Shown piece by piece: positions 3,001 to 60,340 of a DNA stretch of 64,000 nt (position 1 is its first letter; the number at the start of each line of letters is the position of its first letter). The position numbers and the translations under genes were made by a program. Location of the stretch: positions 1,178,001 through 1,242,000 of the forward strand of contig CP049016.1 in assembly GCA_004376055.2 (NCBI GenBank), in the 5' to 3' direction. The notes beneath the pieces are model-generated. The model made no database searches, was not told where the DNA came from, and worked only from the letters and a program-made list of their open reading frames with translations. The DNA comes from Nitrospirales bacterium LBB_01 (lineage in GTDB: Bacteria > Nitrospirota > Thermodesulfovibrionia > Thermodesulfovibrionales > Magnetobacteriaceae).

Positions 3001-5151
3001 GAGAGAAAAAATCCTTCTGAAAATGAGGTAGAGATAGAGGTAAAGTCAGCGGGGCTAAATTTCCGTGATGTGCTGAATGCTCTTGGAATGCTCATAGAGT
3101 ACACCGGCATTAAAGTGGCAGAGGATATGTCATTGGGTTTTGAGTGCTGTGGAGTAGTCAGCCGTATAGGTAAAGACGTAAAAGGCATAAAACCCGGTGA
3201 CTCAGTGATTGCAGCTCCGGTAAAAGGAGCGTTTTCAACTTATACGACAGCCTCATCATCATTTACAGTGCCTATGCCTGAAAACATATCATACGATGAG
3301 GCTGCCACTATACCGACATATCTGACCGCATGGTATGCTCTGATAGAGCTATGCAGACTTAAATCCGGCGACAGAATATTGATTCATTCTGCGGCAGGGG
3401 GCGTGGGACTTGCTGCCGTAAACATTGCAAAGATGGTTGGAGCAGAGATTTATGCTACCGCAAGCCGCGGCAAGTGGGATTTTTTAAGAGCGCAGGGTGT
3501 CAGTAACATAATGGATTCCCGAAGTCTTGATTTCTCAGATGAGATAATGGCTTTAACTCATGGCAATGGCGTAAATGTCGTGCTAAACAGTCTTAACGGC
3601 GACTACATCTCAAAAAGTCTGAGGGTGCTGTCTAATGGCGGGTGTTTCATAGAAATCGGCAAACTTGGCATATGGACAGAGGAGGATGTAAAACGCCATC
3701 GGCCTGATGTTTCATACTATAGCTTTGATATGGGTGAAGTATCCCAGAGAAATCCATCAGCTATACGAGACATGTTAATGCAAATATCATCGCATGTCAG
3801 TACAGGGAAACTAAAACCACTATTTCACAAAGTGTTTCCAATAACTGATGCGGAATCGGCATTCAGATACATGGCTGCAGCCAAACACACCGGAAAAGTG
3901 GTAATCAACATGAGTAATGCTTCGCTAAACGAAGGGATTATACATAGTGATGCAACCTATTTGATTACAGGCGGACTGGGTGCACTGGGTCTTGAGTTAT
4001 CCCATTGGCTTGTGGAACACGGAGCGCGTCACATAGCGCTGACAGGCAGAAGTAACGCAAATGAAAAGGCGCGTGAGAAAATCTCACAGCTTAAAGCACA
4101 AGGGGTCACTGTGATGACAATTTCAGCCGATGTCTCCGTTATGGAGGACGTTGTGCGGCTCTTTAGTGTGATAAGTGAGACGATGCCTCCAGTACGGGGA
4201 ATAATACACGCCGCCGGAGTTTTGGATGACAGTATGATTTTAAATCAGAGTGTGGAGAAATTCCAAAAAGTGATGAAACCAAAAGTTTCAGGCACATGGA
4301 ATCTGCACCTTAAGACAATTGACATGAACCTTGATTTCTTCGTGTGTTTTTCTTCGGTAGCTGCTTTGATAGGTTCAAAGGGGCAGAGCAATTATGCTGC
4401 TGCCAATGTCTTTATGGATGCACTGATGCGATACAGAAGGAGTTTGGGGTATCCTGGTTTAAGCATTAACTGGGGAGCATGGGGCGATGTCGGCATGGCC
4501 TCACAGCTTGGCGAGACTGAAAAAGCTCGGTTAGAGCGGCAGGGGATAGGGAGCATTGCGCTTAAAGAGGGCTTAAAAGCTCTTGAGAGTTTAATTACAG
4601 AAAACGCCATTAATGCCGCAGTGATTCCGATAGATTGGGGCAAATATGAGACAGAAGTTTACGCAGGGGAAATGCCGCCATTTTTTGATTCTGTAAGAAA
4701 GGTCAGTAATGCAGTAAAACCAACCGTCAATGTTTTGAGTTTTTCGGATGAGCTTATCAAACTGCCAACGTATCAGCATTTACAGCGGATAACCGCTTAC
4801 GTAAGGCAACAGGTATCGGCGGTGCTGGCGCTGGACTCATCGCAAGAGATAGGTCTAAGGGAGCGACTTTTTGATGCAGGGATTGACTCACTGATGGCTA
4901 TCGAGCTAAGGAATCGTCTTGAGGCAGGATTTAAACGCACACTTTCAGCGACCCTTGTGTTTGATTATCCCACAGTTGAGGCTCTTGTAAAGTATCTGCA
5001 TGATAGTTTCTCCGCTGTTTCGGATAAACCCGTTATAAAACCAAACGAGCCACAGCCTGAAGAAATATCCTCAGACATATCCGATGACGATATAGCTCGG
5101 CAATTAGCAGAGGAACTTAAAGACATTGACAATAAGAGGACTAATTATTAG
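1..5151 (+). CDS. Type I polyketide synthase, fully reducing module, 5' end outside window
   Basis: The reading frame is open from base 1, so the first possible start (TTG at 109) is internal; bases 1-250 read as the KS-AT linker and the ketosynthase lies upstream. Domains in order: acyltransferase (GQG near 286, GHSIG at 541-555, HGFHS near 841, closer to the malonyl-type HAFH than to methylmalonyl YASH); dehydratase (His at 1441, Asp of the LIDSCVH motif at 1954); enoylreductase (about 2940-3920, nucleotide motif AAGGVGLAA near 3390); ketoreductase (GGLGALG near 3965, Tyr of SNYAAAN at 4393); acyl carrier protein (GIDSL, phosphopantetheine Ser codon 4888-4890). A roughly 50-residue acidic tail follows the ACP. 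No thioesterase is present, so release needs another protein. All reductive motifs look intact, which predicts saturated chain extension, perhaps iterative. The family is certain; the product is unknown. Confidence 0.95.
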   Translation, partial: QHKKVDSELNRTVHILTLSAKTDESLSNLSNRYKEILPSSDVTIRDLCYTANIGRNHFAKRRFAIGETADEFINGLSETQEFQLHEGHTKIAFLFTGQGGLTSSMGRSLYESSPIFRDTLTECDKILRKYIDVPLLELMYGGVSAAVINETRYTQPVLFCLEYSLYKLWQSWGIEPGALLGHSIGEYTAACVSGVFSLEDALMLVAKRGHLMWEAPGEGTMAAVFASETLVLKELTSDNVSIAAVNGIDSVVISGLRNSVMETCKHLSGRGIKSKELVVSHGFHSHLMEPVLDSFAKTADTVVYNKGKIPVVSNVNGEYYSGEKLSADYWVKHIRGTVRFFSGIETLYNDGYRVFVELGPASVLLGMGKRCINDKATAWFPSLRTGQNDWRQMLKSLGELYVCGMDINWRNFNEPYGYRKVAALPTYPFARKHYQIDMSKAQNVTELKWKSPGKRMMLPMSTEIRFESVFRADSPSYIPDHRIFGRLIVAGASHISMVIQAAKEVFGGGHCKLEDFVFQQPVVVPEDGSVNLQLILTPLQKDSYTFQLVSASTSDSNNETWSTHISGKLEKSNPEVSNSHEVMQIEKTIEGWQEINIEEFYEEINKSGHHLGASFLWNKRIWYNKLEAFNKMQCPQFDGNAYEYLLYPGLIDSCVHYFCVKGPEAVFGKEISDTLKHEYIYIPFSIERVDFYQPPVSRHTLWCHTIFKDSDKSIKSITGDIRLIDETGVVIAQFMGFTARQFSRASIALNDSHDNFIYETDWEKKEIEQSAELPDSTWAIFTGKDGVGKQLSSLFKENGIKSIIVQPGTAYSELSDGKGYEINAQSVGDFEKLFATCGKLSGVVYLWSARVSGSEYDADHVGVIGLLHTVQMLVKHGNAKLMIVTRGVWSVGENEDNKSINPAQAPVWGFGRVMFLEHPELNGKLVDLATIAGQDESLFFYNELFYGGKEQQVAMRDGSRFVCRLKRRKSKTVGRVSVSENTVLRLSDYGRLDKLELKPVERKNPSENEVEIEVKSAGLNFRDVLNALGMLIEYTGIKVAEDMSLGFECCGVVSRIGKDVKGIKPGDSVIAAPVKGAFSTYTTASSSFTVPMPENISYDEAATIPTYLTAWYALIELCRLKSGDRILIHSAAGGVGLAAVNIAKMVGAEIYATASRGKWDFLRAQGVSNIMDSRSLDFSDEIMALTHGNGVNVVLNSLNGDYISKSLRVLSNGGCFIEIGKLGIWTEEDVKRHRPDVSYYSFDMGEVSQRNPSAIRDMLMQISSHVSTGKLKPLFHKVFPITDAESAFRYMAAAKHTGKVVINMSNASLNEGIIHSDATYLITGGLGALGLELSHWLVEHGARHIALTGRSNANEKAREKISQLKAQGVTVMTISADVSVMEDVVRLFSVISETMPPVRGIIHAAGVLDDSMILNQSVEKFQKVMKPKVSGTWNLHLKTIDMNLDFFVCFSSVAALIGSKGQSNYAAANVFMDALMRYRRSLGYPGLSINWGAWGDVGMASQLGETEKARLERQGIGSIALKEGLKALESLITENAINAAVIPIDWGKYETEVYAGEMPPFFDSVRKVSNAVKPTVNVLSFSDELIKLPTYQHLQRITAYVRQQVSAVLALDSSQEIGLRERLFDAGIDSLMAIELRNRLEAGFKRTLSATLVFDYPTVEALVKYLHDSFSAVSDKPVIKPNEPQPEEISSDISDDDIARQLAEELKDIDNKRTNY

Positions 5152-5152
5152 A

Positions 5153-5330
5153 AAAATCGCCTATGCAGTTAGCTCCGCAAACAAAAAAATGGATTCCTGC
5201 CTTCGCAGGAATGACAAGAAAAAGAAATTGCCCCCCTTTGTCATTCCCGCCTACGAGCGGGAATCCAGTCCTTTTAACTGTATCATTTGCTGACTGAAAA
5301 AAATTTACAGGAGTTAAATCAATAAGCATT
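5153..5330 (-). repeat. Dispersed hairpin repeat, copy A
   Basis: Reverse-oriented near-copy of the sequence at 46297-46510, and a more distant relative of 12005-12214. It contains two inverted repeats (a CCTGCNTTCGCAGG-type hairpin and a hairpin built on CATTCCCGC/GCGGGAATC). It lies between the convergent PKS gene and the small membrane protein gene. It resembles a REP/MITE-type non-coding element, and could act as a bidirectional terminator. Confidence 0.85.
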
Positions 5331-5350
5331 TTAAAAAATAGTATAGCACA

Positions 5351-11908: not shown

Positions 11909-12004
11909 TGAAAATCCCTCTATATATAATTATTTAACTACCTTATTCTCATTATAATATCAAGAATAGTTTTTTGCAAGAGTTAAAACTACAATTTAGA
12001 ATTA

Positions 12005-12214
12005 TTGCTTAATACTTAACTCAAGTACATGGCTTTATGTCAGCCAAAGATACATTAAAAAAGACTGGATTCCCGCTCGGAGGCGGGAATGACAGAGGAG
12101 GGAATTTTTCTTTTCTGTCATTCCTTTACAGGGGAATCCCCTTTAGGGGACTGTCATTCCTGCGAAGGCAGGGATCCAGTTTTTTCTTTGCGGAGCTAAG
12201 GGCATAGGCAATTA
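12005..12214 (+). repeat. Dispersed hairpin repeat, copy B (diverged)
   Basis: Same order of elements as copy C: a TCAGC...GATACA stretch, GGATTCCCGCTCGGAGGCGGGAATGA hairpin region, an inner GGGGAATCCCC-type hairpin, a CCTGCGAAGGCAGG hairpin and the closing GCGGAGCTAAG...GCATAGGCAATT. It is less similar to A and C than those are to each other. It fills the gap between the kinase gene and the restriction-modification gene, which otherwise holds nothing recognisable apart from the AT-rich kinase upstream region. Confidence 0.8.
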
Positions 12215-46195: not shown

Positions 46196-46296
46196 TAAAC
46201 CCCATCCTGCACGGGGAATGATTCCCCGTGACCCCCAGTTTTGTGGTCAGCGTTATCCTAAATTAAACAGTTTGTTATTATGTTTAAATAATTTAT

Positions 46297-46510
46297 AATG
46301 CTTATTGAGTTAACTCCTGTAGATTTTTTTCAGTCAGCAAATGATACAGTTAAAAGGACTGGATTCCCGCTCGTAGGCGGGAATGACAAAGGGGGGCCAT
46401 TTTACAGGGGAATCCCCTTTAGGGGAGGTCATTCCTTTTTTTCTTGTCATTCCTGCGAAGGCAGGAATCCATTTTTTTGTTTGCGGAGCTAACTGCATAG
46501 GCAATTTTTT
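46297..46510 (+). repeat. Dispersed hairpin repeat, copy C (longest)
   Basis: Nearly identical over most of its length to the reverse complement of 5153-5330, but with about 36 extra bases that add a GGGGAATCCCCTTTAGGGG hairpin in the middle, also seen in copy B. A 64-codon open frame here matches a 62-codon frame in copy A only because the DNA repeats. Confidence 0.85.
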
Positions 46511-46546
46511 TTATTATTGACAAACTGTGAGTATTAGTGGTTTAAT

Positions 46547-46918
46547 ATGCCCATGAAAATAACTAATACCTCCTTAACAGTCATATTTGTATTCATTGTC
46601 AGCATATTAATAGCTGAAGTCTGTGCTGCTGATAATAGGTCTGAAAGACCCCTATCTGAAGTAGTATCTGAATTATCTCAAAAAAACCTTATTAACTCTT
46701 CTCCTCCTTCATTTAAATTTTCCTCTCGAAGAAAGTGTGATAACTGTACTGACTATGATGATTATTTAAATTACTCGATAGGTAAGGTTTATTTTTCGAA
46801 AACAAACATATCTTTACCCAATGACATCCATGAGGCTATCTATAGTGGACCCCATTGTCAAGACCACTTTTTAGTGGACTTAAGGTATAGCCCTCTAAGA
46901 GGGTATTTAGTCTGTTAG
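46547..46918 (+). pseudogene. Exported protein gene cut off by the IS end
   Basis: The product starts with a signal peptide (NTSLTVIFVFIVSILIAEVCAAD) followed by a polar region with CDNCTDYDDYLNY. From base 46841 the frame runs into the left end of the IS3 element, and the last 26 codons come from IS sequence. The original C-terminus is lost. No family recognised. The gene was probably at least somewhat longer than the about 98 native codons left. Confidence 0.7.
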
Positions 46919-53608: not shown

Positions 53609-54391
53609 CTAGTCCTTAAACAAAAACCGCCCTGTGCCATCATCAGTAGTCAACACCTCACCGCTGAATTTAAGCTCTGTAAACTTATTGGAGATTAAAT
53701 CTATCTCGCTCACAGGCGTTATTGAGGCCTTTAAAAGCTCAAGCTCACAGCTACGCCTGTTGACTCTGTCCAGCCCTATAAATCGTACAAAAGCCTCTAT
53801 ACGCTTATTGGTTGATATACTGGTTATGCTGGCTGTTAGTGCATCATAGGAGTAATCCACTTTTAACTTTTGAGCATCACCGATGCCGCCCTCTTCAATC
53901 GTATATATGCGGCCTGTTTCATAATCCACCTCGTAATCTGTACCGGCTACATACGTAACTGACGGATCTGTTGCTGCGGTTACTACCGCATCCATCGGAG
54001 TACTCTTTACATTTCTGTACGCTAACTTTGTGTATTTACCCATATAAGCCGTTATTTCCTCGTTAGTTACCGAGCCCGATAGCTGGACTAAGTTTTCATT
54101 GTCACCCAAAAATGCAAGACGCAGAGTTTCCTTTGTATAGTCTGAAAGGGTAAACTCAAGCGACTGCTTATACCCTGTTATTACTGATTTTATAACATTA
54201 CCGTAGGAGCCCCTCGTTTTGGATTTCATATCCACTTTGGTTATCTTTGGCACCGTAAGTTTAAACTCTGTGACATTACCAAGCAGTATTTCACCCGTTT
54301 TTGCACCTGTGGTGTTATCCAAAATGTCTATATACAGATTTCCTGAGCCGATAAACGCCCCTTGTACATAACTCTTTAAACTATCTCCCAT
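53609..54391 (-). CDS. Phage tail-tube-like protein
   Basis: 260 residues, beta-rich. GNLYIDILDNTTGAKTGEILLGNVTEFKLTVPKITKVDMKSKTRGSYGNVIKSVITGYKQSLEFTLSDYTKETLRLAFLGD is typical of a phage major tail/tube protein front half, and the middle contains an AGTDYEVDYETGRIYT segment seen in tail proteins. It is paired with a tiny membrane gene upstream; no other structural phage gene is nearby, so this is a remnant, a cargo gene or a captured tail protein. Confidence 0.65.
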   Translation of the reverse strand: MGDSLKSYVQGAFIGSGNLYIDILDNTTGAKTGEILLGNVTEFKLTVPKITKVDMKSKTRGSYGNVIKSVITGYKQSLEFTLSDYTKETLRLAFLGDNENLVQLSGSVTNEEITAYMGKYTKLAYRNVKSTPMDAVVTAATDPSVTYVAGTDYEVDYETGRIYTIEEGGIGDAQKLKVDYSYDALTASITSISTNKRIEAFVRFIGLDRVNRRSCELELLKASITPVSEIDLISNKFTELKFSGEVLTTDDGTGRFLFKD

Positions 54392-54603: not shown

Positions 54604-54631
54604 GTAGGGGCGAATAATTATTCGCCCCTAC
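54604..54631. repeat. 28-bp perfect palindrome
   Basis: GTAGGGGCGAATAA followed directly by its reverse complement. Its length and composition look like a REP-type element rather than a terminator, because no gene ends into it. It marks the edge of the phage-derived pair. Confidence 0.75.
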
Positions 54632-54649
54632 TTATTCCACGAACATTAA

Positions 54650-54702
54650 GGGCTATACCTTAAGTCCACTAAAAAGTGGTCTTGACAATGGGGTCCACTA
54701 TA
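54650..54702 (-). repeat. Isolated 53-bp copy of the IS3 element left end
   Basis: Reverse complement of 54650-54702 is identical to 46841-46893, the left end of the IS element, and similarity stops on both sides. No transposase is here, so this is a relic or a mobilised end. Confidence 0.9.
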
Positions 54703-54781: not shown

Positions 54782-55774
54782 ATGTTATCAGATGAAATCT
54801 TAAAGAGTTTCTACAGAAAAAACGTGTTGGTTACCGGCGGCACAGGGCTTATCGGGCGCAAAGTGGTGCGGATACTGGAACAGGCGCAGGCGCATATAAA
54901 AATCGTCTCACTGGATACGCTAAAAGTCTCAGATTCTGCCCAATACGTCTATGGCGATCTCTCTGATTTTAACTTATGCAAAGAACTCACCAAAGACATG
55001 GACTACGTGTTTCATCTTGCCGGCGTTCAGGGGAATGCCTACACGTCAAAGGCAAAACCTGCCAGCCATTTTGTTCCCATTCTGATGGTCAACACTAATG
55101 TGCTTGAAGCAGCACGGATAAACAAGGTCGGTAAGGTTGTCTATGTCAGCACAATTGGTATATACGAGGAGGCCGGCGTTTTACGTGAGTCCGATTTCAG
55201 ATGCGATTCCGCTCCAATGGACTTTGCCGGATGGGCAAAACGAATGGGAGAGCTTCAGATTGGCGCTTATAAGACTCAGTACGGCTATGATAATTTTTCT
55301 ATCGTCTGCCCTGCTCATGTCTATGGGGAGGGGGATAATTTTGACCCTAAAGTGAGTCTGGTCATTCCGGCACTGCTTTATAGATTGAGCGAGGGACAGG
55401 AAAATCCGCTTGTCGTGTGGGGAGATGGGAGCGCTGTGCGCGATTTCGTCTATAGCGGCGATGTGGCCGAGGGCATTGTGCTTGCCATGTATCACGGTAC
55501 GCATGGAGAGCTTGTTAATCTGGGCAGCGGTATAGGCACATCCATACGAGAGCTTATTGAAACTCTGCACACATTTATCCCGTTTGAGTACCGCTTTGAC
55601 AGCTCTAAACCAACCGGCGTCGCTAAACGAGTAATGGATATTTCCCGCGCCAAAACCATGATTGGGTACAATCCACAAACGTCCCTTTATGAGGGACTTA
55701 AGATAACCTGGGACTGGTATATTAATAACCCCGATGAACACCTAAAAAAGAAAAACCACTACGCTGATGATTAA
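54782..55774 (+). CDS. NAD-dependent epimerase/dehydratase (extended SDR)
   Basis: 330 residues. Rossmann motif VLVTGGTGLIGRKVVRI, YVFHLAGVQGN, YVSTIGIYEEAG and HVYGEGDNFDPKVSLVIPALL, VWGDGSAVRDFVYSGDVAEGI are typical of sugar-nucleotide epimerase/dehydratase. The usual YxxxK pair reads AGWAK near residue 149-153 (bases 55226-55240), so the catalytic Tyr position is Ala. The enzyme may use another residue or have changed chemistry. Bases 55043-55774 are duplicated at 56445-57176. It is followed by the radical SAM gene, 8-base overlap. Confidence 0.85.
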   Translation: MLSDEILKSFYRKNVLVTGGTGLIGRKVVRILEQAQAHIKIVSLDTLKVSDSAQYVYGDLSDFNLCKELTKDMDYVFHLAGVQGNAYTSKAKPASHFVPILMVNTNVLEAARINKVGKVVYVSTIGIYEEAGVLRESDFRCDSAPMDFAGWAKRMGELQIGAYKTQYGYDNFSIVCPAHVYGEGDNFDPKVSLVIPALLYRLSEGQENPLVVWGDGSAVRDFVYSGDVAEGIVLAMYHGTHGELVNLGSGIGTSIRELIETLHTFIPFEYRFDSSKPTGVAKRVMDISRAKTMIGYNPQTSLYEGLKITWDWYINNPDEHLKKKNHYADD

Positions 55775-56444
55775 AGAGCGTGTGGGTCTGGTTCAGATAA
55801 ACAACAGTTTCTCTAATCAAAACTATTTTCCTCTTTCAGTAGGATTGCTCCAATCGTATGCGATGGCGTATTTAAAAAATCCCTCAGATTTTCAATTCCT
55901 TCTGCCAATATATAAAAACGTAGCACCAGAGCAGGCAGTCGGCATTCTTAAGGATGCCTCCATTGTGGCATTCAGCGTATATGTCTGGAATGAGCGACTG
56001 TCGTTAGAGATAGCTGCTGCGCTCAAACAGCGATCGCCAAAAACCCTTATAATTATAGGAGGCCCAAGCGTCCATGAAGACAGAGGCAAGGCTCAGGCTT
56101 TCCTTCGCACACACCCTTACGTGGATATCCTCTGTCACGGAGCCGGCGAGGAGGTGTTTGTAAGCATTCTTGAGAATTTTAAAACCAAACGCTGGCAGAA
56201 AGTCTCCTCAATCAGCTTTATAGACAAAGAAGGTAAATTTATAAGCACACCGTGTATACAATCTAAAACCTTTGACATTAACGCTATCCCATCGCCATAC
56301 CTGAGCGGCGTATTTGATCCTCTTATGGCGGCAAATCCCGATGAGACATGGTTAGCCCTTTGGGAAACTAACCGCGGCTGCCCGTTTTCCTGTGCGTACT
56401 GTCAATGGGGATATAACACCAATAAAAAGATATATTCCTTTGAT
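55043..56444 (+). repeat. Tandem duplication, first 1402-bp unit
   Basis: Base for base the same as 56445-57846 as far as I compared, including identical long antisense frames. It covers the C-terminal three quarters of the SDR gene and the first 225 codons or so of the radical SAM gene. The junction shows a 2-base (AC) microhomology. Confidence 0.95.
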
Positions 56445-57176
56445 ACGTCAAAGGCAAAACCTGCCAGCCATTTTGTTCCCATTCTGATGGTCAACACTAA
56501 TGTGCTTGAAGCAGCACGGATAAACAAGGTCGGTAAGGTTGTCTATGTCAGCACAATTGGTATATACGAGGAGGCCGGCGTTTTACGTGAGTCCGATTTC
56601 AGATGCGATTCCGCTCCAATGGACTTTGCCGGATGGGCAAAACGAATGGGAGAGCTTCAGATTGGCGCTTATAAGACTCAGTACGGCTATGATAATTTTT
56701 CTATCGTCTGCCCTGCTCATGTCTATGGGGAGGGGGATAATTTTGACCCTAAAGTGAGTCTGGTCATTCCGGCACTGCTTTATAGATTGAGCGAGGGACA
56801 GGAAAATCCGCTTGTCGTGTGGGGAGATGGGAGCGCTGTGCGCGATTTCGTCTATAGCGGCGATGTGGCCGAGGGCATTGTGCTTGCCATGTATCACGGT
56901 ACGCATGGAGAGCTTGTTAATCTGGGCAGCGGTATAGGCACATCCATACGAGAGCTTATTGAAACTCTGCACACATTTATCCCGTTTGAGTACCGCTTTG
57001 ACAGCTCTAAACCAACCGGCGTCGCTAAACGAGTAATGGATATTTCCCGCGCCAAAACCATGATTGGGTACAATCCACAAACGTCCCTTTATGAGGGACT
57101 TAAGATAACCTGGGACTGGTATATTAATAACCCCGATGAACACCTAAAAAAGAAAAACCACTACGCTGATGATTAA
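55767..57176 (+). CDS. Chimeric protein: B12/radical SAM N-terminus joined to SDR C-terminus
   Basis: 469 residues created by the tandem duplication. Residues 1-226 are the same as the front of the 657-residue radical SAM enzyme (B12-binding-like fold and GCPFSCAYCQW), ending at SFDT. Residues 227-469 are the SDR from SKAKPASHFV onward. The join is in frame, since 1402 leaves a remainder of one base and the two genes differ by exactly that frame. The radical SAM barrel and the Rossmann NAD motif are both missing, so it is unlikely to be active in either role. Confidence 0.85.
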   Translation: MIKERVGLVQINNSFSNQNYFPLSVGLLQSYAMAYLKNPSDFQFLLPIYKNVAPEQAVGILKDASIVAFSVYVWNERLSLEIAAALKQRSPKTLIIIGGPSVHEDRGKAQAFLRTHPYVDILCHGAGEEVFVSILENFKTKRWQKVSSISFIDKEGKFISTPCIQSKTFDINAIPSPYLSGVFDPLMAANPDETWLALWETNRGCPFSCAYCQWGYNTNKKIYSFDTSKAKPASHFVPILMVNTNVLEAARINKVGKVVYVSTIGIYEEAGVLRESDFRCDSAPMDFAGWAKRMGELQIGAYKTQYGYDNFSIVCPAHVYGEGDNFDPKVSLVIPALLYRLSEGQENPLVVWGDGSAVRDFVYSGDVAEGIVLAMYHGTHGELVNLGSGIGTSIRELIETLHTFIPFEYRFDSSKPTGVAKRVMDISRAKTMIGYNPQTSLYEGLKITWDWYINNPDEHLKKKNHYADD

Positions 57177-57846
57177 AGAGCGTGTGGGTCTGGTTCAGAT
57201 AAACAACAGTTTCTCTAATCAAAACTATTTTCCTCTTTCAGTAGGATTGCTCCAATCGTATGCGATGGCGTATTTAAAAAATCCCTCAGATTTTCAATTC
57301 CTTCTGCCAATATATAAAAACGTAGCACCAGAGCAGGCAGTCGGCATTCTTAAGGATGCCTCCATTGTGGCATTCAGCGTATATGTCTGGAATGAGCGAC
57401 TGTCGTTAGAGATAGCTGCTGCGCTCAAACAGCGATCGCCAAAAACCCTTATAATTATAGGAGGCCCAAGCGTCCATGAAGACAGAGGCAAGGCTCAGGC
57501 TTTCCTTCGCACACACCCTTACGTGGATATCCTCTGTCACGGAGCCGGCGAGGAGGTGTTTGTAAGCATTCTTGAGAATTTTAAAACCAAACGCTGGCAG
57601 AAAGTCTCCTCAATCAGCTTTATAGACAAAGAAGGTAAATTTATAAGCACACCGTGTATACAATCTAAAACCTTTGACATTAACGCTATCCCATCGCCAT
57701 ACCTGAGCGGCGTATTTGATCCTCTTATGGCGGCAAATCCCGATGAGACATGGTTAGCCCTTTGGGAAACTAACCGCGGCTGCCCGTTTTCCTGTGCGTA
57801 CTGTCAATGGGGATATAACACCAATAAAAAGATATATTCCTTTGAT
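56445..57846 (+). repeat. Tandem duplication, second 1402-bp unit
   Basis: Second unit of the direct repeat. The sequence after it (from 57849) continues the intact radical SAM gene. Perfect identity implies a recent event or an assembly error. Confidence 0.95.
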
Positions 57847-59142
57847 ACAGAGCGGCTGCATAGAGAGATTGACTGGTTTAGCGGTAAACGCATTGAGTTT
57901 ATATACTGTTGTGATGCTAATTATGGAATATTGCCACGTGATATTGACATTGTTAATTATGTCGTAAAAAATAAGATAAAATACGGCTATCCAAAGGCGT
58001 TTTCTGTACAAAACACTAAAAACTCCACCGAAAAGACGTATAAAATCCAAAAAACCCTCTCTGACGCTGGAATGAACAAAGGGGTCACGATGTCTTTGCA
58101 ATCCCTAAACCCTGCCACGTTAAAGGCGGTTAACCGGCAAAACATCTCAACAGGAGTTTTTCAGGAGCTGCAAAACAGATTCACTGCCGACAAAATTGAA
58201 ACCTACACCGATGTCATACTTGGGCTGCCCGAGGAAACTATTGAAAGCTTTACCAGAGGGGTAGCCGAGATAATCGAAAAAGGCCAACATAACCGGATAC
58301 AGTTTAATATCCTCGTTATTTTAGATAACTCTGAAATGGGACAAGAGACATACCATGAGCGCTACGGTTTTGTTGTAAGAGAAACGCAGATTATAAATTT
58401 TCACGGGGGGTTGACGACTGATAGCGTAACAGAGCGTGCCGAGACTCAGAAAATCGTTGTAGGCACAAATACGATGCCCCCGGCAGATTGGTTGAAAGTG
58501 CGGGCATTTGGATGGATTACAGCTCTTATCTATTTTGATAAACTTCTACAGATACCGCTTCTAATGCTTCACAAGCGCTATGGCGTCAGGTTTAAGGACA
58601 TATTAGAGGGGTTTGTTAGAGGTCAGTTAAACACACCTGTGATAAATGAAATAAATGCGTTTTTTATCAACAAGGCGCTGGAGATTCAAAACGGCGGCGC
58701 TGAGTACTGCGCTTCAAAGGAATGGCTTGGGATATGGTGGCCGGCAGATGAGTATATATTTATAAAGCTATGCAAAGAGGGAACACTTGAAAAGTTTTAT
58801 GAAGAAAGCAAAATCCTACTTTTTTCGCTTTTAAAACAATATGGGATTATACCGGAGACAAATCTTCTTGATGAGGCCATTTTGCTAAACCATGAATTAA
58901 TAAAGCGTCCGTTTCAGGATGCTGATTACGATATTGAATTAAGCTATAACGTGTGGGACTACTACCGCGCCGTACTTGCCGGCGATACCTCATCACGCCT
59001 CATCCGCGGCAGTTACACATACCGGATAGACCGCACAACCGAGCGCTGGAGCAGCTGGGAGCAGTGGTATAAAGAGGTGGTCTGGTACGGTAATAAAAAA
59101 GGCGCTTACCTTTATACATGCTCACAGGAGGTTCACAGATAA
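57169..59142 (+). CDS. B12-binding-domain radical SAM protein
   Basis: 657 residues. An N-terminal Rossmann-like B12-binding domain (VGLVQINNSFSNQNYFPLSVGLLQSYA, LIIIGGPSVHEDRG) lacks an obvious DxHxxG cobalamin motif. The radical SAM CxxxCxxC motif is GCPFSCAYCQW (about 57778-57810), followed by IEFIYCCDANYGILPRD and TDVILGLPEETIESFTRG. A C-terminal domain of about 200 residues is not recognised. Methyl or other radical transfer on a sugar-like or aminoacyl substrate is likely. It overlaps upstream SDR codons and sits one base before the DegT gene. Confidence 0.9.
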   Translation: MIKERVGLVQINNSFSNQNYFPLSVGLLQSYAMAYLKNPSDFQFLLPIYKNVAPEQAVGILKDASIVAFSVYVWNERLSLEIAAALKQRSPKTLIIIGGPSVHEDRGKAQAFLRTHPYVDILCHGAGEEVFVSILENFKTKRWQKVSSISFIDKEGKFISTPCIQSKTFDINAIPSPYLSGVFDPLMAANPDETWLALWETNRGCPFSCAYCQWGYNTNKKIYSFDTERLHREIDWFSGKRIEFIYCCDANYGILPRDIDIVNYVVKNKIKYGYPKAFSVQNTKNSTEKTYKIQKTLSDAGMNKGVTMSLQSLNPATLKAVNRQNISTGVFQELQNRFTADKIETYTDVILGLPEETIESFTRGVAEIIEKGQHNRIQFNILVILDNSEMGQETYHERYGFVVRETQIINFHGGLTTDSVTERAETQKIVVGTNTMPPADWLKVRAFGWITALIYFDKLLQIPLLMLHKRYGVRFKDILEGFVRGQLNTPVINEINAFFINKALEIQNGGAEYCASKEWLGIWWPADEYIFIKLCKEGTLEKFYEESKILLFSLLKQYGIIPETNLLDEAILLNHELIKRPFQDADYDIELSYNVWDYYRAVLAGDTSSRLIRGSYTYRIDRTTERWSSWEQWYKEVVWYGNKKGAYLYTCSQEVHR

Positions 59143-59143
59143 A

Positions 59144-60340
59144 ATGAAAATCCCTTTTGGTACTATATCGGTAACAGAGAAATCAAAAGAGTTAATCCGT
59201 GAGATACTGGAGAAAAACAGACTCTCAAGCGGTAAGTATGTGAGGGAGTTTGAGAATAAGTTTGCGGCTCTAACAGGAGTTAAAGAAAGTGTGACCGTAA
59301 GCACGGGCACTGATGCTCTTGCGCTTGCGCTTGCGGTGCTCTACGATTATGGTGCAAAGAGAGGCGATGAGATAATAGTCCCTGCCCTGTCTTTTGTAGC
59401 AACAGCAAATGCGGTGCTTCAGGCTGGGTTTACGCCGGTCTTTGTCGATGTTCAGAAAGAGACCTTAAACATTGATACGAATAAAATAGAGACTGCTATA
59501 ACAGAGAAAACCCGAGCCATCCTGCCCGTGCACCTTATGGGAAAACCAGCCGAGATGGATACAATTATAAAAATCGCAAAAGCCCATAGATTACTCGTAA
59601 TAGAGGACGCTGCAGAGGCACACGGAGCAGTATATAAGGGTAAAAAGGCCGGAGCTATGGCCGATATGGGATGCTTTAGTCTCTATGTGGCACACATTAT
59701 CACAACGGTTGAGGGAGGCATTGTTACTACCGACAATGAGGACTACGCTGAAATCTTGAGATCGTTAAGGAGTCACGGCAGAGCGTGTAAATGCAAAAGC
59801 TGCGTGCTTAATACCGCCTCAGCCTATTGTTCAAAACGGTTTGAACACGGAGAAGACATCAGGTTTTATTTTGAACGGGTGGGGTTTTCCTCAAAAATGA
59901 ATGAGCTTGAGGCCGCAATAGGAATTGGAAATCTTGATATATATGATGAGATTCTTACAAAAAGACGAGAAAATCTTTACTATTTAATGAATGCACTGAA
60001 AGCACATTTTTCCTCATACATTTATACGATAACGAAAGAGGAGTACGAGGAAATAGGCCCGCACGCGCTCCCAATTATAATCAAAGAGGGAGCCAAATTT
60101 GTGAGACAGCAGTTGATAGATTTTTTTGAGAAAAAAGAAATAGACACACGCACGCTATTTTCCTCAATGCCAACCCAGTGCCGCGGATATGAGTATTTGG
60201 GGTACAAAACGGGCGATTTCCCAGTTGCCGAATATGTTGGATTAAACGGTATTCACATCGGCGTACATCAGGACATCACTCTGGCCCACTGTGAGTACAT
60301 AATAGAGACGCTAAATGAATTTCTCAGTCAATATAGTTAG
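59144..60340 (+). CDS. DegT-family PLP enzyme with His in place of the PLP Lys
   Basis: 398 residues of the DegT/DnrJ/EryC1/StrS family: TVSTGTDALALALAVL, IVPALSFVATANAVLQAGFTPVFVDV, VIEDAAEAHGA. The position normally holding the PLP-binding Lys (SFYxxK) reads SLYVAH, with His184. Relatives with His here are the sugar 3-dehydrases ColD and RfbH/E1. The region GRACKCKSC (Cys215, 217, 220) plus Cys229 resembles the iron-sulphur segment of E1. It is therefore probably a deoxygenating dehydratase, not an aminotransferase. It follows the radical SAM gene by one base and is the last gene of the locus. Confidence 0.85.
   Translation: MKIPFGTISVTEKSKELIREILEKNRLSSGKYVREFENKFAALTGVKESVTVSTGTDALALALAVLYDYGAKRGDEIIVPALSFVATANAVLQAGFTPVFVDVQKETLNIDTNKIETAITEKTRAILPVHLMGKPAEMDTIIKIAKAHRLLVIEDAAEAHGAVYKGKKAGAMADMGCFSLYVAHIITTVEGGIVTTDNEDYAEILRSLRSHGRACKCKSCVLNTASAYCSKRFEHGEDIRFYFERVGFSSKMNELEAAIGIGNLDIYDEILTKRRENLYYLMNALKAHFSSYIYTITKEEYEEIGPHALPIIIKEGAKFVRQQLIDFFEKKEIDTRTLFSSMPTQCRGYEYLGYKTGDFPVAEYVGLNGIHIGVHQDITLAHCEYIIETLNEFLSQYS

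Follow-up and report, generated by a model that had tools for sequence, protein, structure and literature searches.

The locus lies in a window of 64,000 nucleotides (positions 1178001-1242000) in the single-contig genome of Candidatus Magnetomonas plexicatena LBB01, which is 3,273,455 bases long and 99.87% complete, with a G+C content of about 42.3% over 864 kb of its length. The organism is a magnetotactic member of the Nitrospirota, and its genome (CP049016) was reported as circular, with a size of 3.27 Mbp and 42.0% G+C (PMC9376291). Four open reading frames follow one another here on the forward strand (all positions below are those of the window). The first, at 54782-55774, encodes an intact SDR of 330 amino acids that belongs to the Epimerase family and, from profile and structure matches, resembles GDP-fucose synthase, which is also the closest solved structure. 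It is followed by a hybrid frame of 469 amino acids (55767-57176), an intact cobalamin-dependent radical SAM protein of 657 amino acids (57169-59142), identified from its frame and from profile and structure matches as KedN5/TokK/CysS-like, and the next gene of the operon, a DegT/DnrJ/EryC1 aminotransferase (59144-60340). The first three frames are joined by 8-base ATGATTAA overlaps at 55767-55774 and 57169-57176, and they agree with the preliminary description, which had reported a 469-codon fused gene set in frame between intact SDR and radical SAM genes.

In the SDR the position of the catalytic tyrosine is occupied by Ala149, and the canonical tyrosine of the YxxxK motif is likewise absent from the other SDRs that are paired with a radical SAM protein (L009, L010, L005 and L114), all of which read AGWAK at this site (residues 149-153 in the window protein); an unpaired SDR relative, L115, reads PGWAK. 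As relatives share the loss of this tyrosine, the SDR is possibly not a redox enzyme of the classical type. The radical SAM protein carries the cluster motif CPFSCAYC, its residues 18-482 match TokK (E 1.3e-82), it also matches CysS (E 8.3e-59), and by its sequence it is a relative of the TokK/CysS/KedN5 cobalamin-dependent C-methyltransferases. It differs from them in sitting in a sugar-type gene pair, and we do not file it as a family member, its score of 264 bits being below the curated NCBIfam cut-off of 700 for the KedN5 family.

Several other features were seen in the surroundings. A perfect 28-bp palindrome, GTAGGGGCGAATAATTATTCGCCCCTAC, lies upstream of the SDR gene at 54604-54631 and occurs in nine copies genome-wide at no more than one mismatch, with none in a reversed control. 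Just upstream, on the minus strand at 53609-54391, is a protein that matches phrog_807, a family of phage major tail proteins, with an E value of 3.8e-48, and a prophage remnant beside the operon is possible. Dispersed over the window are also three related repeats, each about 200 bp long and 69-81% alike (5143-5335, 12003-12213 and 46292-46518), together with a 54-bp sequence that recurs exactly in inverted orientation (46841-46894 and 54649-54702).

Self-comparison of the window revealed that 55043-56446 is repeated at 56445-57848, identical without interruption over 1404 bases at an offset of 1402, bearing out the earlier observation that this offset holds over the whole unit. The structure is that of a 1402-bp unit present twice, with a 2-bp overlap: the first copy (55043-56444) runs from codons 88-330 of the SDR gene into codons 1-226 of the radical SAM gene, the identical second copy occupies 56445-57846, and both are read on the forward strand. 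The AC that follows the second copy (57847-57848) is the only sequence common to the left break point (CCTAC|ACGTC), the right break point (TTGAT|ACAGA) and the junction (TTGAT|ACGTC), so that the 2-base AC junction previously placed at 56444/56445 was recovered by sequence comparison. The flanks of the unit are unique, and the break-point regions contain no direct repeats beyond the AC, which places the event in the short-junction type. An origin through flanking repeats or a mobile element was rejected, as the break points share nothing else. The computed chance of a 2-bp overlap at a random join is about 0.16, and an exact repeat of 1404 bp cannot be a chance occurrence. The window contains no other exact direct-orientation repeat of at least 40 bases, and no Rfam match for a structured RNA was found inside or beside the unit.

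The SDR-radical SAM pair is found once, with the same gene order, in the related genomes G001 (76% identical DNA), G008, G201 and G256, as well as in a Planctomycetota MAG. The single-copy state is strongest for the missing fusion junction, since short-read-only assemblies could conceal a collapsed duplication. A segment that is single in these relatives is thus present in LBB01 as two adjacent direct copies, as expected of a spontaneous tandem duplication; single-copy relatives would equally be expected if the LBB01 cells themselves held one copy. The fused frame was absent from all 295 genomes of the phylum (the genome of the window set aside), and a conserved natural fusion was rejected on these grounds. 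In G008, from a related genus, the SDR is intact, and the adjacent radical SAM gene (L010, 1498-3409) is broken by stops and split between frames, which suggests a gene in decay.

A tandem duplication that starts within one gene and ends within its downstream neighbour always leaves the outer copies of both genes intact, with a hybrid of the second and the first between them. The arrangement of intact parents and a middle hybrid is therefore automatic for end points of this kind, and as the odds of an in-frame fusion are 1 in 3, chance suffices to explain the open frame. The hybrid joins residues 1-226 of the 657 of the radical SAM protein to SDR residues 88-330, the 243 C-terminal residues of that protein, and neither part brings a complete catalytic domain. 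The radical SAM part comprises the B12-binding domain and is cut soon after the CPFSCAYC motif, which it retains, so that most of the barrel, all that lies past the first Cys-motif loop, is missing, and the SDR part lacks residues 1-87, with the first four Rossmann strands and the NAD motif GGTGLIG. In the hybrid, Pfam profiles gave no Radical_SAM domain, and the Epimerase match began only at position 86 of its profile. An AlphaFold model of the hybrid, built on a shallow alignment of 12 sequences, had a mean pLDDT of 71.7 and a pTM of 0.53, with values below 50 across the junction (residues 197-241), and the intact SDR (6 sequences) reached 81.8 and 0.85. Most likely, the B12-type domain would fold, the tail would misfold and the product would lack enzyme activity; the hybrid is probably without function.

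These properties bear on the idea that the duplication is real and has been retained by selection, either for dosage or for a function of the hybrid B12-domain/SDR protein. In its favour, the hybrid frame is open and has translational coupling to both its neighbours, and its B12-binding part is predicted well, with a pLDDT of about 90 for the greater part of residues 1-160. However, neither gene gains a complete extra copy, which removes any simple dosage benefit, the hybrid has lost the radical SAM barrel and, from the SDR, the NAD-binding half, the predicted fold is poor compared to that of the intact SDR, and the 295 genomes of the phylum offer no counterpart. We regard selective retention as very improbable, and as even less probable a population-level duplication caught at birth, with a hybrid that is expressed and is coming under selection as a new cobalamin binder. 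The preliminary description proposed that a new fusion protein could become fixed through the duplication; this finds little support, given the incomplete catalytic domains, the low-confidence junction and the absence of the fusion from the 295 genomes of the phylum.

How the genome was made bears on whether the repeat exists in the cells. The LBB01 DNA came from a magnetically enriched lake population and was amplified with GenomiPhi, a phi29 MDA procedure, and ONT R9.4.1 and DNBSEQ 2x150 reads were assembled with SPAdes-meta and then reassembled with Unicycler 0.4.6 (PMC9376291). The cells might hold one copy, with the join introduced into the assembly graph by a phi29 MDA chimera, in which a 3' end used the AC to prime again on the same strand, 1.4 kb upstream, or by an artefactual tandem nanopore read; the hybrid assembler would then have walked the resulting simple loop once too often. 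MDA chimeras join sites with 2-21 nt in common, and 90.9% of direct joins over less than 10 kb have at least 2 bp of complementarity (PMC1855051); artefactual tandems in ONT reads are known to enter bacterial assemblies (PMC10589936). MDA depth is uneven, and a depth filter could therefore let through a chimera that had been over-amplified locally. Short reads cannot resolve tandem repeats longer than the insert size, a further point for an artefact.

The direct-orientation MDA chimeras of Lasken and Stockwell (2007; PMC1855051) resemble the join at this locus in their short overlaps, in sites less than 10 kb apart and in their source in MDA DNA, but theirs were found in single reads, and the join in the window stands in the consensus of a finished assembly. 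Moreover, the local direct class is rare: direct joins of less than 10 kb made up 11 of 475 MDA chimeras, 85% of chimeras were inverted, and inverted joins were favoured about 26-fold within a molecule (PMC1855051). For one join to dominate bulk DNA would require very few templates or local over-amplification. Unicycler removes from its graph any contig with less than half the median depth, except where dead ends would result, and it uses long-read support to pick paths; a chimeric join that is rare should therefore be lost. Further cases in the same assembly, which would support an artefact and are not strictly required by it, were lacking: 63 further stretches beyond the window, bringing the sample to about 1.3 Mb (40%) of the 3.27-Mb genome, contained no second comparable repeat, the longest exact direct match within any 16-20-kb stretch being 226 bp. 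The assembly is thus not generally prone to such repeats, and a systematic assembly fault was rejected. The stretches around three MreB-family matches, sampled in a search for two reported mad28 genes, also held no long exact tandem repeat. In our judgement the probability that the repeat is an artefact falls somewhat short of even.

The rarity of local direct MDA chimeras and the assembler's low-depth filter lead us to lean slightly towards a real, very recent, neutral or near-neutral tandem duplication of 1402 bp, which we place just above an even chance; that the duplication is real at all, the selected case included, is somewhat better than an even chance, and this is a judgement and not a computed value. 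An exact repeat with unique flanks, a 2-bp overlap and a pair that is single in related genomes are what such an event would leave, and bacterial duplications with microhomology or no-homology junctions are commonplace (PMC11721125). The locus shares with spontaneous short-junction tandem duplications the head-to-tail copying of a unique segment, a microhomology-only junction, intact parents and a hybrid gene at the join, but differs from them in being known from an assembly alone (PMC11721125). Against a real duplication stand the MDA origin of the DNA, its uneven depth, and 2-bp overlaps that are also typical of MDA chimeras. Tandem repeats are also unstable (PMC11721125), so that a high frequency in the population is not expected without selection. 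The two alternatives set out in the preliminary description, a very recent duplication or an assembly artefact, thus proved to be the right pair, and present evidence does not separate them decisively.

If the duplication is present in the cells, we propose that two unrelated sites sharing only AC were joined within a sugar/polysaccharide gene pair by an illegitimate, microhomology-scale event in replication or repair. The result would be near-neutral, as both parents remain intact and translationally coupled, and the hybrid would fold only in its N-terminal B12-binding domain and gain no new activity. RecA recombination between the copies would later delete or amplify the duplication. The absence of any difference between copies would in principle imply a divergence below about 0.2%, but we rejected this as a date; perfect identity is weak evidence of age, since bridge sequence in Unicycler comes from the short-read graph, which is thus the source of both copies as written.

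What the locus shows is either an artefact or a short-junction tandem duplication of an ordinary kind. CP049016, presented as the first magnetotactic Nitrospirota genome to be completed, serves as a reference, yet it derives from MDA-amplified DNA, and for this reason structural features confined to one locus, the present one included, need to be checked at the level of reads before they are interpreted biologically. If real, the duplication would be a clean case of a fresh short-junction event giving rise to a hybrid open reading frame in an uncultured bacterium.
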